From Nitrospirota bacterium (GTDB lineage: Bacteria; Nitrospirota; Thermodesulfovibrionia; Thermodesulfovibrionales; Dissulfurispiraceae): DNA of 53,816 nucleotides. Position numbers and translations under genes: made by a program. The notes below the pieces were generated by a model. The model did not search any database, was not told where the DNA came from, and saw only the letters and a list, made by a program, of their open reading frames with translations. The stretch covers positions 1 through 53,816 of the forward strand of contig JAJZPZ010000003.1 in the NCBI GenBank assembly GCA_021847795.1. The letters run 5' to 3'. Below, piece after piece: positions 8,658-34,587 of this stretch; positions within the stretch are counted from its first letter, which is position 1, and each line of letters starts with the position of its first letter.

Positions 8658-8777
8658 GAAATTCTAAATCCCAAGCGCCAAATTCCAAACAAACTCGAAA
8701 TCCCAATGATCCGAACAGGTTTGGGTTTTTGAATATTTGAATTTGTTTCGGATTTGGAATTTCGAATTTAGAATTTC
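8658..8777. repeat. Long AT-rich word-type palindrome between pilR and pilS
   Basis: GAAATTCTAAAT (8658-8669) is perfectly complementary to ATTTAGAATTTC (8766-8777), and the pairing continues imperfectly inwards through words like CCAAATTCC and GGATTTGGAATTTC. It contains AAATCCCAAGCGCCAAAT at 8666-8683, identical over 18 bases to the repeat at 31759-31776. It fills nearly the whole pilS-pilR gap, and the right arm supplies the final residues and stop of PilS. Confidence 0.75.
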
Positions 8778-26362: not shown

Positions 26363-28623
26363 GAATAACGAGAACGCTTTCTTGTGCCATGCTGATCGTG
26401 GCTGTTTTGCTTCAGGGCGCCTTCCTCCGGACCGCCCACGCTGAAGAGCTGCCGGTTATTACCGCCATAGAAGTAAAGGGGCTGCGCAGGATTGATGAGG
26501 GCTCCATAAGGGCCAAGGTATCGCAGAAAATAGGAGACCGCCTGTCCAATGAGAAAACCTCCGATGACATAAAGACCATGTACAAGATGGGGTATTTTGA
26601 TGACGTTAAGGTCAACATCGAGCCCTTTGAAGGCGGGCTCAAGATCATCTATGTGGTCAAAGAAAAGCCTACCATCATAAAAGTCGATTTCCAGGGCAAT
26701 AAAAAGTTTGAAGACGATAAACTGAAAGAGCAGGTCACTGTCACCAGCGGCGCCATATCCGACATCACCCTTATAAATGATAATGCCGCAAAACTCCGGA
26801 CGTTTTATGAGGATGAAGGCTTTTACCTGGCAAAAGTAGTGCCTGTCGTGCGGAAAATCGCCGAAGGGGAAGTTGCCCTGACCTACCAGATAAATGAGGG
26901 GCAGAAGGTAAAAATAAAGGACATTATCATAGAGGGCAACAAGGCCATATCCGCAAAAAAGATCAGGAAGGCAATGAAGACCAAGACGCGGGGCCTCTTT
27001 TCTTTTATCACAGGCACAGGCTATTACAAAAAAGATACCATGAGAGCTGATGTGGAAAAGATAAAAGACCTCTACTACAATAAAGGCTACATCAAAGTCA
27101 CTGTAGGAGAGCCGAGGATCCAGCTTACCGATGACAAAAAGGGAATGAAAATCGCCCTGCAAATCTCGGAAGGGGACTCCTACAAGGTAGCTTCCGTAGA
27201 TATAACCGGCAACAAGGCTTTTACAGAGGCAAAGCTGCGGGAGCTGATCAAGCTTCCCGCCAATAAGACCTTTGATAAATCACTCCTCACCAAGGACGTT
27301 ACTGTAATTTCCGACAAGTATGCGAACAACGGGTACGCGCTTGTTTCAGTATTGCCCGATATCATTCCCGATGATGAGAAAAAAGAGATAAAAGTAATCT
27401 ACAAAATCAGCGAGGGCGACAAATACAGTATCGGTAAAGTTGAAATATCGGGCAATACCAAGACGCGCGATAAGGTCATCAGAAGGGAAGTAAGGGTTGA
27501 TGAGGGCGACACATTCGATGCCTCGGCGCTGAAGAGGAGTTACGAGAGGCTGAACAACCTCCAGTACTTCGAATCAGTAGACGTTGCGCCGAAGCCAAGG
27601 CCGGAAGAAAAGCTCGTTGATGTTGATGTAACGGTAAAAGAGAAGCCCACGGGCTTTCTCAGCGTCGGCGGCGGCTACAGCTCGGTGGACAAGTTCATTG
27701 CCATGGTGGATATCACCCAGGGGAACCTCTTCGGAAAGGGGCAGTATCTAAAGCTGCGCGGAGAACTCGGCGGCACCAGTTCCTTCTATGAACTCTCCTT
27801 CAGGGACCCCTGGTTTATGGACAAGCCCATATCCTTCGGCGCCAGTATTTACAAAAACCAGCGCCAATACGGCGACTTCGACAGGGACTCAACAGGCTTT
27901 GAGTTCTCCTTCGGGAAAAACTTCTGGGAGTACTGGAATGGCTCCGTCACCTATAACCTTGAGAAGACAACAGTGTCCAACGTACGGGTTGACGCTTCGC
28001 AAATAGTAAAAGACCAGGAAGGCAAAAACACCACAAGCAGCATAAGCCTTGCGTTGGGAAGGGATACGAGAGACAATTACCTCGACCCGTTAAGGGGATC
28101 AAAGAATGCCGTATATCTCACTTTTGCAGGACTGGGCGGCACGACTGCCTTTACCAGAGAGATTCTTGATTCCAGCTGGTATTTCCCCATGTTTAGCAAC
28201 ACGACATTCCACGTCCGTGGGAGGATAGGCCATACAACAGGGCTCTTCGGCAAGAAGCTCCCGCTCTATGAGAAATTTTACGTGGGAGGCATCGATACGG
28301 TGCGCGGCCTGGGATATGGCGAAGGCGGGCCGAAGGATGTCAACGGAGAGGCCATGGGCGGAGAAAAGGAACTGATATTAAATGCGGAATACATATTCCC
28401 TATCGTAGCGGAATACAAATTCAAAGGGCTTGTCTTCATTGATTCGGGAAGGGCATGGGGCTCGGGTGAGGCATGGGGAAGCGACCTCAGGTATACTACA
28501 GGAACAGGGATACGATGGATATCACCGGTAGGTCCGATCAGGATCGAGTGGGGGCATGTCCTCAACAAAAAGCCCGGGGAGTCAGGGAGCAAGGTTGAAT
28601 TCACCTTCGGATCATTCTTTTAA
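26359..28623 (+). CDS. bamA: Outer membrane protein assembly factor BamA
   Basis: The 754-residue protein has a signal peptide (MRITRTLSCAMLIVAVLLQGAF, cleavage near AHA). About five POTRA domains occupy residues 28-345-420, each with the GN/GL...I...Y...GY pattern (for example KGLRRIDEGSI, QGNKKFEDDKL, EGNKAISAKKI, SGNTKTRDKVI). A 16-strand Omp85 barrel completes it, with the VRGLGYGEG loop motif and a C-terminal FTFGSFF strand ending in F. BamA folds and inserts outer membrane proteins. The gene leads the envelope operon with ompH and the lipid A genes, the usual order in many Gram-negatives. Confidence 0.96.
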   Translation: MRITRTLSCAMLIVAVLLQGAFLRTAHAEELPVITAIEVKGLRRIDEGSIRAKVSQKIGDRLSNEKTSDDIKTMYKMGYFDDVKVNIEPFEGGLKIIYVVKEKPTIIKVDFQGNKKFEDDKLKEQVTVTSGAISDITLINDNAAKLRTFYEDEGFYLAKVVPVVRKIAEGEVALTYQINEGQKVKIKDIIIEGNKAISAKKIRKAMKTKTRGLFSFITGTGYYKKDTMRADVEKIKDLYYNKGYIKVTVGEPRIQLTDDKKGMKIALQISEGDSYKVASVDITGNKAFTEAKLRELIKLPANKTFDKSLLTKDVTVISDKYANNGYALVSVLPDIIPDDEKKEIKVIYKISEGDKYSIGKVEISGNTKTRDKVIRREVRVDEGDTFDASALKRSYERLNNLQYFESVDVAPKPRPEEKLVDVDVTVKEKPTGFLSVGGGYSSVDKFIAMVDITQGNLFGKGQYLKLRGELGGTSSFYELSFRDPWFMDKPISFGASIYKNQRQYGDFDRDSTGFEFSFGKNFWEYWNGSVTYNLEKTTVSNVRVDASQIVKDQEGKNTTSSISLALGRDTRDNYLDPLRGSKNAVYLTFAGLGGTTAFTREILDSSWYFPMFSNTTFHVRGRIGHTTGLFGKKLPLYEKFYVGGIDTVRGLGYGEGGPKDVNGEAMGGEKELILNAEYIFPIVAEYKFKGLVFIDSGRAWGSGEAWGSDLRYTTGTGIRWISPVGPIRIEWGHVLNKKPGESGSKVEFTFGSFF

Positions 28624-28630
28624 CAAAGGC

Positions 28631-28732
28631 CGTAATGTGTATCCGTAATGAGTAATGAGGGAAAAATATTCCGCGAGACTGCCTTGTCGGTATTGTCTTT
28701 TACCCGTTACGCATTACCCATAACTCATTACG
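28631..28732. repeat. Word-type palindrome between bamA and ompH
   Basis: The left arm (28631-28661) repeats CGTAATG and GAGTAATGAG. The right arm (about 28700-28732) carries TTACGCATTACC and AACTCATTACG. The arms are largely complementary, with about 40 unrelated bases between. The arrangement matches the other word palindromes of the window, and the words CGTAATGAGT recur in the copy inside the lipoate ligase gene (33930-33938 reads GTAATGAGT). Confidence 0.7.
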
Positions 28733-28754
28733 ATTAATAAAATTGGAGGATAGG

Positions 28755-30975: not shown

Positions 30976-31755
30976 ATGGCAAAGGAGATACATAAAACAG
31001 CGATAGTGAGCCCGAAGGCGGAGATTGCCGCCAATGTCACCATAGGACCTTACTGTATTGTCGGGGAAGGCGCAGTGATAAAAAAAGGATCACGCCTCAT
31101 GTCTAATGTAATCATCGAGGGGAACACGGAAATAGGGGAGAACTGCACCCTCTATCCTTATGCCACCATCGGGCTCCCCCCCCAGGATCTCAAGTACAAG
31201 AACGAAAAAACAGGGGTAAAGATCGGCAAGGGCAATATCATCAGGGAATACGCCTCCATCCACAGGGCCTCTGTAGGGGGGACCGGACTGACGGAAATAG
31301 GGGATTCGAACTTCCTTATGGCGTACGTCCATATCGCACATGATTGCAGGATCGGGAATTCCATTGCCATGGCCAATGCGGCGACTCTCGCAGGGCATGT
31401 GGTAGTGGAGGACTTTGCCTTCATCGGGGGAGTAGTTGCAGTGCACCAGTTTACCCGCATCGGCGCTTATGCCATGATCGGGGGATTCAGCGGTATCGGG
31501 CAGGACATACCTCCGTTCACCATGGCCTCCGGGCCCCGCGCAAAGCTCTATGGGCTCAATGCTATCGGCATTAAGCGGCACGGGTTTTCCGATGAGACCA
31601 TCAACAACCTGAAAAAAGCCTACAAGATCCTTTTCAGGGAAAAAAGGACCCTGAAGGAAGCGCTGAAAAAAATAAAATCAGACCTCCCCGACACCAAGGA
31701 GATCAAACACCTCGTCGAGTTCATTGAAAAGAACACAAGAGGAATATGCAGATAA
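30976..31755 (+). CDS. lpxA: UDP-N-acetylglucosamine acyltransferase LpxA
   Basis: The 259-residue protein has hexapeptide repeats from the start (HKTAIVSPKAEIAANVTIGPYCIVGEGAVI). The catalytic histidine is in YVHIAHDCRIGN, and GHVVVEDFAFIGGVVAVHQFTRIG and a C-terminal helical domain (about 190-259) with LKKAYKILFREKRTLKEAL follow. It catalyses the first step of lipid A synthesis. AAAGGAGG precedes the ATG. Confidence 0.97.
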   Translation: MAKEIHKTAIVSPKAEIAANVTIGPYCIVGEGAVIKKGSRLMSNVIIEGNTEIGENCTLYPYATIGLPPQDLKYKNEKTGVKIGKGNIIREYASIHRASVGGTGLTEIGDSNFLMAYVHIAHDCRIGNSIAMANAATLAGHVVVEDFAFIGGVVAVHQFTRIGAYAMIGGFSGIGQDIPPFTMASGPRAKLYGLNAIGIKRHGFSDETINNLKKAYKILFREKRTLKEALKKIKSDLPDTKEIKHLVEFIEKNTRGICR

Positions 31756-31757
31756 GG

Positions 31758-31840
31758 CAAATCCCAAGCGCCAAATCCCAAACCTCAAAAATTGTTTTGA
31801 ATTCCGACCATTGGAATTTGGGATTTGTTATTTGGAATTT
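31758..31840. repeat. AT-rich word-type palindrome between lpxA and lpxI
   Basis: The left arm, with AAATCCCAAGCGCCAAAT at 31759-31776, pairs with GGAATTTGGGATTTGTTATTTGG near 31813-31835. The 18-base segment is identical to the one at 8666-8683. The repeat runs up to the lpxI ATG and leaves that gene with only a weak ribosome site (GGA, 5 bases before the ATG). Confidence 0.75.
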
Positions 31841-32653
31841 ATGAAGACTATCGGTATTATTGCCGGGACCGGCGAACTTCCTAAGATCATCGCACAAGAC
31901 GCACGTGAGCGCGGGTACAGGGTTATCACCATTGCCCTTGAGAACCTCGCCCCTGCCGAGATGGACGGCCTCTCTGATGAAATCAGGTGGATCAATGTAG
32001 GCAAACTGGGCGAACTTATCAGTGTGCTCAGGGAATTCAACGTAAAAGAAGCCATCATGGCCGGCAAGGTCCCCAAGTCGCTTATTTACAAATCAAAGAT
32101 CACCCCTGACCTCAGGGCGATAAAACTGCTTTTCTCCCTTAAGGACAAGAGTGACGACTCGATCTTAAATGCAATCACCCGGGAGATCGAAAGCGAGGGG
32201 GTGAGCATCATAGACACAACCACCCTGAGCCCCCACCTCCTTACGCCTGAAGGTGTATTAACGGAAGAGCCCCCATCTAAGGACGAATGGAAAGACATAG
32301 AGTTCGGATGGAAGATCGCCAAGGAGACAGGCAGGCTGGATATCGGGCAGACCGTTGTGGTTAAAGGTCAGGCGGTGATGGCTGTTGAGGCCATCGAAGG
32401 CACTGATGAAGCAATACGACGGGGGGGTAAATGGGCCGGCAGCGGCGCAGTTGTCGTAAAAACAAGCAAGCCCCAGCAGGACATGAGACTTGACGTCCCC
32501 GTTGTCGGGCTCTCAACCATCAAAGCCATGGTTGATGTCACTGCACGGGTCCTTGTTATTGAGGCGCAAAAGAGTATAATAATAAATAAAGGAAAATTGA
32601 TAAAAGAAGCGGAGGAATCAGGCATCACCATAGTAGGATACAGGAAAGGTTGA
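31841..32653 (+). CDS. lpxI: UDP-2,3-diacylglucosamine diphosphatase LpxI
   Basis: From the ATG at 31841 the protein has 270 residues and opens MKTIGIIAGTGELPKIIAQDAR, the start of the LpxI (DUF1009) family. A frame open further upstream runs through the repeat and lpxA and is not the native start. The C-terminal half, with GQTVVVKGQAVMAVEAIEGTDEAI and KTSKPQQDMRLDVPVVGLSTI, is the conserved catalytic domain. It hydrolyses UDP-diacylglucosamine to lipid X in place of LpxH. The stop codon lies in the left arm of the next palindrome. lpxB, which often follows, is absent. Confidence 0.94.
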   Translation: MKTIGIIAGTGELPKIIAQDARERGYRVITIALENLAPAEMDGLSDEIRWINVGKLGELISVLREFNVKEAIMAGKVPKSLIYKSKITPDLRAIKLLFSLKDKSDDSILNAITREIESEGVSIIDTTTLSPHLLTPEGVLTEEPPSKDEWKDIEFGWKIAKETGRLDIGQTVVVKGQAVMAVEAIEGTDEAIRRGGKWAGSGAVVVKTSKPQQDMRLDVPVVGLSTIKAMVDVTARVLVIEAQKSIIINKGKLIKEAEESGITIVGYRKG

Positions 32654-32793
32654 AGGAGGAAGGATGAAGGATGAGTTAAGGCTAAAGAATAAAGGCATAA
32701 TAAAACCGTGCTGTTTTTCAACCCTCAACCTTCATCCTTCAACCTTTAGACCGGGTCCATGCCGTTTTTCAACCTTCACCCCGTATCCTTCAT
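32648..32793. repeat. Word-type palindrome after lpxI, with two right arms
   Basis: The left arm (32648-32675) repeats GGTTGAAGGAGGAAGGATGAAGG. The first right arm (about 32724-32746) reads CAACCTTCATCCTTCAACC, and a second (about 32764-32792) has TTCAACCTTCACCCCGTATCC. The left arm contains the lpxI stop (TGA in GGTTGAAGG). The second right arm ends 9 bases before the next gene's ATG, and that gene has no ribosome site. Confidence 0.7.
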
Positions 32794-32801
32794 AATCTGA
32801 T

Positions 32802-33809
32802 ATGACCTACATTGATACCATAAAAGAAGGCGTAGGCACCGTACATAAAAACTGGCAACTCCTGCTGGTCCAGTTTGCCTCCATGTTCCTCAGCTGTGCA
32901 AGCTTTTTTCTCATTGTGGGAATACCGATTGCCATTGCCTTCGTCATGTTCGGGCTTGACCTTACGGAAATACTGAGGCTCAAGGACGTGGTGAGCGCCT
33001 TCAAAGGCTCTGCCGAACTGCTGCACAAATATTTCGGCATGGCGCTGATAGTCATACTCAGCCTCCTCATTTACATCACCTTCATCGCCATCCTCTGGAT
33101 CTTCACTGTAGCAGGGACCATAGGAGTGATTGCGGATACTATTTTAAAGGGATACCACAAATTCACGCTGGGATACTTCTTTACTGAAGGGAAGCGGCTC
33201 TTCTTCCCTGTGCTCATATTTTCAACAATAATCGGCGTTGTTTTCATAACCCTTGCCTTTATTCTCGGCATCCTCGGCGGGGGCGCCTCGACGATTATTG
33301 ATATGGCAAAGGCCCAGGAGGCAGCGCTAGGACTTTTCCTCGGCGTCTTTTTCTCCCTGGTGCTCCTCTGCGCCGGTTTTATTCTGATTCTTATCACCTT
33401 ATCGGTAACGATTTACGGGGTTGCCGATCTGGTGTTCAATGAATCAAAACCTCTCACTGCCCTGAAGGATACCGCCCGGTATCTCTACGAGAGGCCGGCT
33501 GCCGTAGGCTTCTACGGAACTCTTCTCCTGGGGTATATGCTGACCGGCTTTATCGTGATCCTGGTGGGAACTCCCTTTGCGCTCATACCAATCATCGGCT
33601 CGTTCCTGGCAATTCCTTACCAGTTTATCACCTATGTCATCCAGGGATACATCAGCCTTGTTATGCTTGCCTCAATCTTCCATTATTACTACAAGACCGG
33701 CTACGCTGCACCTCACCCTCAGTCCACAGGGGATTCCGATACTTTTCAGACACCAGGGAGCGGGCAAACTCAGCCTCCTGAGGAGACGGAAGGGCATCGG
33801 CAAGAGTAA
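32802..33809 (+). CDS. Polytopic membrane protein of unknown function
   Basis: The 335-residue protein has about six long hydrophobic segments, with an amphipathic start (MTYIDTIKEGVGTVHKNWQLLLVQF) like proteins of the YciC/DUF975 or DUF4013 type. VTIYGVADLVFNESKPLTALKDTARYLYERP is a conserved-looking cytosolic loop. The last 40 residues, rich in Q, P, T and G, are probably disordered and are the part that overlaps the convergent lipoate ligase gene by 149 bases. It occupies the place where lpxB might be expected but shows no glycosyltransferase features. No Shine-Dalgarno sequence is visible. Confidence 0.75.
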   Translation: MTYIDTIKEGVGTVHKNWQLLLVQFASMFLSCASFFLIVGIPIAIAFVMFGLDLTEILRLKDVVSAFKGSAELLHKYFGMALIVILSLLIYITFIAILWIFTVAGTIGVIADTILKGYHKFTLGYFFTEGKRLFFPVLIFSTIIGVVFITLAFILGILGGGASTIIDMAKAQEAALGLFLGVFFSLVLLCAGFILILITLSVTIYGVADLVFNESKPLTALKDTARYLYERPAAVGFYGTLLLGYMLTGFIVILVGTPFALIPIIGSFLAIPYQFITYVIQGYISLVMLASIFHYYYKTGYAAPHPQSTGDSDTFQTPGSGQTQPPEETEGHRQE

Positions 33810-34587
33810 CCCCGAAAACCCGTTCAAAAGACAACCTGATGCACCTTTTGAACTTTTCAGGATCGAAATCCCGAATCAGTTCCCTCAGGCCGACCATATT
33901 CAAAGGCAGTGATGCGTGATGCGTGATGCGTAATGAGTCAAAAGAAAGAAAAGGGTCTTTGTTCTCAAACTCATCACTCTTCACGCATGACGCGTCACTG
34001 TCTTTCAGATTAAACACCTCGAGAAGCTTTTCATAATCAAGGGAGTAGGGGATGGACCCTTGCTGAAGAAAGCCGTCGGGCCATCTCTTCTGCGCTGAGC
34101 CGATCAGCTTCTTACGATCAAAGCTTATTTCGCCGTAGGATGTGGATTGAAAACAGAGGGGACTGCGTGTCAGGTTTCTTCCCGGCTCACGCTCCCTCTT
34201 GATTACTGCCCGCACCCCGGCCATCTCAAGCCCTGATTGCAGCGCAGTGCTTATAAGGCGGTACGTCTCCAGGAGGCCTTTTGAGAAAGGTCCCTCATTC
34301 CCCGAGGAAAAACCGTACGTAAGTTCATCGCCGTGCAGAATCGCCCTGCCGCCGGTAGGTCTCCTCACCACAGGAATGTTGCTGCCGGCGCAGTATTCCC
34401 GGTTAATGTCCGGAATGCCCTGGAACGAGCCGATGCTTACAGAGGGGACTTCCCAGCCGTACACCCTGAGCGTCGGCAATGTCCTGCCCTTTCTGACGGC
34501 AAACGCGATGGCTTCGTCCAGCGCCATGTTGTAAGCGGCATCACAGGGGCCTGAATCAATGAATCGCCAGGTAATCTCATTGCCCAT
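33661..34587 (-). CDS. Lipoate-protein ligase A family protein
   Basis: The 308-residue protein has the BPL/LplA/LipB fold: FIDSGPCDAAYNMALDEAI at the start, RRPTGGRAILHGDELTYGF in the binding loop, and KLIGSAQKRWPDGFLQQGSIPY with the conserved lysine. It attaches lipoate or octanoate to dehydrogenase or glycine-cleavage proteins. Odd: about 31 codons (33908-33999) are a word-type palindrome in frame, giving a segment from SDASCVKSDEF to LRITHHASL between the catalytic domain and the C-terminal helix (NMVGLRELIRDFDPEKF). The C-terminal end overlaps the convergent membrane-protein gene. The short C-terminal part could also fit a LipM-type octanoyltransferase. Confidence 0.88.
   Translation of the reverse strand: MGNEITWRFIDSGPCDAAYNMALDEAIAFAVRKGRTLPTLRVYGWEVPSVSIGSFQGIPDINREYCAGSNIPVVRRPTGGRAILHGDELTYGFSSGNEGPFSKGLLETYRLISTALQSGLEMAGVRAVIKREREPGRNLTRSPLCFQSTSYGEISFDRKKLIGSAQKRWPDGFLQQGSIPYSLDYEKLLEVFNLKDSDASCVKSDEFENKDPFLSFDSLRITHHASLPLNMVGLRELIRDFDPEKFKRCIRLSFERVFGVTLADALPSPQEAEFARSLVSEKYRNPLWTEGEVQRSRSCSNNGRLRQA
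33908..33999. repeat. Word-type palindrome in frame inside the lipoate ligase gene
   Basis: Both arms are 31 bases: 33908-33938 (three copies of GATGCGT in tandem, then AATGAGT) and 33969-33999 (ACTCATCACTC, TTCACGCATGACGCGTCACT). By eye 26 of 31 positions pair. The 30 bases between form the loop. The element has no stop in the ligase frame and adds about 31 residues. Confidence 0.82.

Follow-up and report, generated by a model that had tools for sequence, protein, structure and literature searches.

Most of the palindromic repeats known to lie in frame within protein-coding genes come from Rickettsia and Wolbachia, with repetitive extragenic palindromic (REP) sequences adding cases from some other bacteria. 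The Rickettsia palindromic elements (RPEs) and their Wolbachia counterparts are in-frame palindromes (Ogata et al. 2000; reviewed in PMC2229807, PMC10969869); the RPEs occupy 19 open reading frames (ORFs; PMC2229807) and are tolerated by the host enzyme, gmk having been tested in Rickettsia (PMC2229807, PMC10969869). Among the REPs tagged with GTAG/CGTC some are intragenic and encode 20-82 residues in Opitutus terrae, R. conorii and Thauera (PMC3733652). Here we describe an element from a stretch of 53,816 nt of a Nitrospirota bacterium (contig JAJZPZ010000003.1, positions 1-53,816; henceforth the window), in which the gene for a lipoate-protein ligase contains a palindrome built of tandem 7-nt words. 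Very probably this palindrome represents a dispersed, non-autonomous, protein-coding palindromic heptamer repeat, which is translated as a tolerated loop and whose words have probably been replaced in place.

The palindrome, assigned to class A of two word classes, is 104 nt long and reaches outward to AAAGGCAGTG...CACTGTCTTT (33902-34005, minus strand). It lies without a stop codon inside the minus-strand ORF 33661-34587, as the initial annotation had noted, and is translated as ligase residues 195-229 (KDSDASCVKSDEFENKDPFLSFDSLRITHHASLPL). The insertion proposed there thus stands, at a length of about 35 residues rather than 31. The two core arms of 31 bases, 33908-33938 and 33969-33999, pair at 26 positions, again in agreement with that annotation. 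The first arm is made of tandem 7-nt words, GTGATGC as read on the plus strand, of which Tandem Repeats Finder (TRF) recovers 3.9 repeats at 33909-33935; the central part between the arms (33939-33968; TTTGAGAACAAAGACCCTTTTCTTTCTTTT on the coding strand) is partly self-complementary and resembles that of other class A copies (GTTGAAGGACAAAGAC...). When the window is scanned with arms of 25 nt, this site reaches a complementarity of 22/25, whereas 19/25 is the most seen in ten copies simulated from it by a first-order Markov model, and GTGATGCGTGATGCGT with at most three mismatches is found at eight sites, against 0.25 expected. A period of 7 was found by TRF in the palindromes of the window, which are in this respect heptanucleotide repeats like the short tandemly repeated repetitive (STRR) sequences. 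In the ligase message the palindrome forms a strong hairpin; a search of Rfam returned nothing near gathering scores.

The host protein is a ligase of the LplA/LipM type with 308 residues, which keeps the invariant RRPTGGR.I.H and K..GSAQKRW and matches the Pfam LplA-B_cat domain over residues 16-196 (82 bits). In a search of 60 related genomes, most homologue alignments end at residue 193-196 of the ligase and restart at 230-231, which is the gap predicted for the insert; no homologue with an equivalent segment but without a palindrome was found. The linker is much shorter and unrelated in most relatives, with 5-12 residues in several genomes, e.g. VFKNESKGISGLKEL in G013. Other inserts occupy it in some genomes. 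In G011 it holds a palindrome of this kind that has diverged; in G001, which belongs to the same genus as the genome of the window (G000), a palindrome of CCCCT words together with a possible remnant of the right end of class A; in G003 a CGTC/dRS3-like palindrome (GTCATTCC..GGAATGAC); and in three genomes from genus g5 a short array whose word has 8 nt. Modelling by AlphaFold2, with the window protein and 29 relatives, gave a mean predicted local distance difference test (pLDDT) score of 86.3, with values mostly above 90 in the domains and below 50 for residues 205-225, residues 192-229 being coil. The insert is hence predicted to be a disordered coil linking two confidently modelled domains.

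With the ligase element as query, BLAST yields 88 matches in the same genome, and model searches 143, both numbers counting both strands. Further copy counts refer to the regions fetched around matches, that is, 77 regions and the window (385 kb), and not to the whole genome. Over these a DNA profile found 140 places and revealed a second class, B. The class A peptide reads ...SVMSDELKDKD..SRITHHASRSL and that of class B ...LQVTSNELKTNDKD..LLVTRHSSLVT; class B has the start AAAGACAGT in common with class A and a different word. The best copies of the family have common ends, AAAGRC...GYCTTT, and a common core, and a stop-free ORF with a nearly identical peptide runs across 15 of the 25 top copies. 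A rough filter for either class was passed by 48 distinct ORFs. In-frame hosts identified by sequence include carA, alr, prmC, xerC/D, comEC, cbiGH, a family-4 uracil-DNA glycosylase, a pyrK-like gene and a long gene for an acyl-CoA dehydratase activator, which holds several inserts; class B is hosted by bioD, nagA, hemC, mnmA, cbiD, aroC, murE, ribonucleotide reductase, glyS, queA, cobB, dapF, murJ, queC, ileS and folC. For LplA, CarA, Alr and PrmC the comparison with homologues confirms where the insert lies, and in CarA and Alr intact domains flank the insert in Pfam and PDB alignments.

Other copies supply gene starts, in TsaD, two pseudopilins and FlgA; the TsaD orthologue (L186, 996-2075) has its apparent start within a class A element that replaces the usual N-terminus. 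One-arm tandem duplications of 39 nt and 42 nt give long SRITHHASR repeats in alr and flgA (L128, 4367-4592; L165, 2733-3010). A further in-frame repeat, with the peptide GLSLFTNSRWFTTDEAERSHRMGTVPG, is nested within elements of CarA and QueA in G001 (L255, L254) and of CobB in G000 (L150).

Counting as genic a full-length copy spanned by an ORF of at least 100 residues, 41 of the 93 full-length places qualify, and 39 of these 41 share strand and frame. Exactly one frame is open in 37 of the 41 genic copies, and none is open in 43 of the 52 non-genic ones. Around all ten closed, non-spanning copies that were checked, the flanking ORFs belong by inspection to two different genes, e.g. tsaD/ccsB-like, hisC/aroF-like, rph/murI, holB/tmk and ilvN/ilvB. 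In many intergenic copies of G000 a stop codon adjoins the left end (TAAAG). One column of the A1 alignment, with a pyrimidine in genic and a purine in non-genic copies, was dropped as evidence: the classes are defined by the absence of stops and that column makes a stop, so the split is inherent in the definition.

Related genomes contain inserts at the same positions, in part with other words. A profile of the class A peptide has matches in 20 of the 60 relatives, mostly stop-free within long ORFs. Between G000 and regions of G001 picked for carrying the peptide, inserts stand at the same residue in NagA, CbiH, CarA, XerC, QueA, QueC, MnmA, BioD, CobB and the activator, the agreement being exact in NagA, CbiH and CobB; at the same site the word class differs in QueA, QueC, BioD and the second site of XerC. 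The loop of prmC is occupied at the same place in eight genomes with about six spellings: class A; GGGTCAT; class B; GCATTAC/GCATCAC; GGTTCAC (two genomes); a degenerate array; and, in G026, a CCCCCCT palindrome; the arrays of G030 (GGTTCAC x4) and G017 have no second arm. Pooled identities by codon position between G000 and G001 are 0.70/0.76/0.645 for the inserts and 0.81/0.87/0.51 for their hosts. Third positions are thus better conserved in the inserts, which are therefore under weak constraint at the protein level while being comparatively well kept at the DNA level. From these comparisons we read the words as having probably been exchanged or replaced among copies.

The chief rival is that different elements inserted independently, lineage by lineage, at tolerant hot spots, a serious possibility that we disfavor only slightly. 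The occupied linkers are known-variable loops, and unrelated palindromes do occur in them, namely the dRS3-like and CCCCT palindromes in LplA and the CCCCCCT palindrome in prmC. Such insertion would need strong targeting, given word arrays or degenerate traces at the prmC loop in eight of eight genomes and the exact residue agreement in the three proteins named above. It also sits poorly with residual similarity between orthologues: taken over 15 sites, an insert is nearer to its orthologue than to a random partner (p=0.018), yet the orthologue is top-ranked in only two.

Mobilization as a REP-like element, or as the related REPIN (REP doublet forming a hairpin), by Y1 transposases of the REP-associated tyrosine transposase (RAYT) type is unlikely. 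The genome has 13 Y1_Tnp genes, and Y1 and element counts are weakly correlated across the 60 genomes (rho 0.30, p=0.019; with this genome excluded, 0.26, p=0.048). Against this, the element ends lack the GTAG/CGTC tag, only one of eight Y1 genes examined has an element nearby, about as copy density predicts, and G003, G008, G011, G022 and G054 have elements and no Y1 gene. Still less probable is that 7-mers multiplied locally by tandem slippage in tolerant loops, nothing moving from one locus to another: the tandem units, the arrays without a second arm and the duplications in alr and flgA are what this would produce, but identical ends, a common core and one pair of peptides recur at dozens of unrelated loci, which requires copying between loci. 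That the segment is removed or skipped rather than translated, by mRNA processing or ribosome bypassing, is hardly credible, since the strong hairpin in the message would suit it but neither frame nor absence of stops would then be needed, and genic copies keep both.

Taking as direct results the palindrome, its family, the frame restriction, the insertion relative to homologues, the predicted disorder and the same-site inserts with different words, we favor the dispersed translated repeat with words replaced in place. The ligase segment would be one copy of a non-autonomous repeat whose two inverted arms consist of tandem 7-nt words. A copy landing in a gene would survive only if it keeps the reading frame and can itself be read without stops in one frame; translation would then yield a hydrophilic and disordered loop that links folded parts, with the host enzyme presumably still working. 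In-frame palindromes in dozens of genes, often at a shared place in related species yet written in other words, suggest a repeat that spreads through essential genes by harmless translation. The sites may be old within the family and their words replaced from other copies, candidate routes being gene conversion or template switching among copies and renewed insertion into the same place. More tentative, and rather doubted by us, is a wider picture of a Nitrospirota lineage in which dozens of fixed places within essential genes hold protein-coding heptamer palindromes, with active copying rewriting the words in place so that orthologous sites in each genome take on its own word.

Several points weigh against the favored reading. 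The frame contrast between genic and non-genic copies is partly circular, because an open frame defines the genic class, and neighboring genes were checked for ten closed copies only. The G001 regions, having been selected for the peptide, are silent on how frequently sites are shared. The orthologue signal noted above implies that replacement is incomplete or absent at some sites. Arm covariation is absent, complementarity being 0.742 within and 0.745 between copies (p=0.62, 20 copies), so it was rejected as evidence of a maintained hairpin; RNAalifold pairs only eight positions across copies. Nearly all the genomes are fragmented and probably metagenome bins. Finally, of the features of miniature inverted-repeat transposable elements the inverted ends are present, and visual inspection of the sequence flanking 20 copies revealed no target-site duplication, a parent transposon having been sought only among Y1 genes.

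Further word palindromes lie in the window: one like class A at 28621-28738 (plus strand, intergenic); one of the heptamers AAGGATG/TTCAACC at 32645-32748, which overlaps the end of an lpxI-like ORF; and one of CAAATCC/TTGGAAT at 31758-31840, between lpxA-like and lpxI-like genes. The lpxI-like ORF read from a TTG (31724-31840) runs through the latter palindrome, and the true start of this gene is probably the ATG at 31841. A period-7 word pair, TTTCGAA, at 8719-8777 is probably another word palindrome. The earlier statement that such elements are elsewhere intergenic applies to the other word palindromes of the window and fails for the genome, where about 48 ORFs contain in-frame copies of class A or B.

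In the open-licence literature we found no description of heptamer palindromes that code for protein in Nitrospirota. The cyanobacterial STRR sequences consist of heptamers scattered through the genome, often close to the ends of genes. The GGGNATC heptamer repeats of Xanthomonas and Nostoc are likewise dispersed and often near gene ends (PMC4692102); both kinds resemble the Nitrospirota element in this but are not described as paired inverted arms. Another parallel is the P6b stem of the Nostoc trnL intron, which is built from one of two 7-nt motif classes, the class not following phylogeny, and is repeatedly replaced as a whole region of unknown origin (PMC4476775). Two motif classes and, probably, replacement are common to both systems, but P6b is one RNA locus in a group I intron, and the Nitrospirota element occupies protein-coding genes genome-wide. 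Coding palindromes are described from Nematomorpha mitochondria (PMC6649704). With the GTAG/CGTC REPs the element shares short palindromes within ORFs; unlike them, it has arms of heptamer arrays and ends in AAAGRCMGT...ACKGYCTTT, with neither tag.

What appears new, from comparing sequences, is that orthologous genes of related genomes have inserts at the same position spelled in different heptamer words. Where one heptamer class takes the place of another at a given position of the protein, the copying mechanism becomes testable by sequence comparison, and related genomes at graded distance are on hand for this lineage. For annotation there is also a warning: the insert peptides resemble family-specific insertions or extra N-termini, yet are repeat DNA. 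The likeness to RPEs suggested at the outset holds up: these are dispersed palindromes of about 100-150 bp (here 104 bp, 26/31), in frame in many conserved housekeeping genes and nearly always in one frame. The comparison is apt because about 48 ORFs are read through stop-free in a near-uniform frame, and copies closed in all frames were intergenic in ten of ten cases checked. The Nitrospirota element differs from the RPEs in its host, which belongs to another phylum outside the Rickettsiales, in its tandem 7-nt words, in having two word classes with common ends, in the larger number of ORFs that it occupies (about 48 over the regions covered, compared with the 19 of Rickettsia), and in words that differ between orthologous sites.
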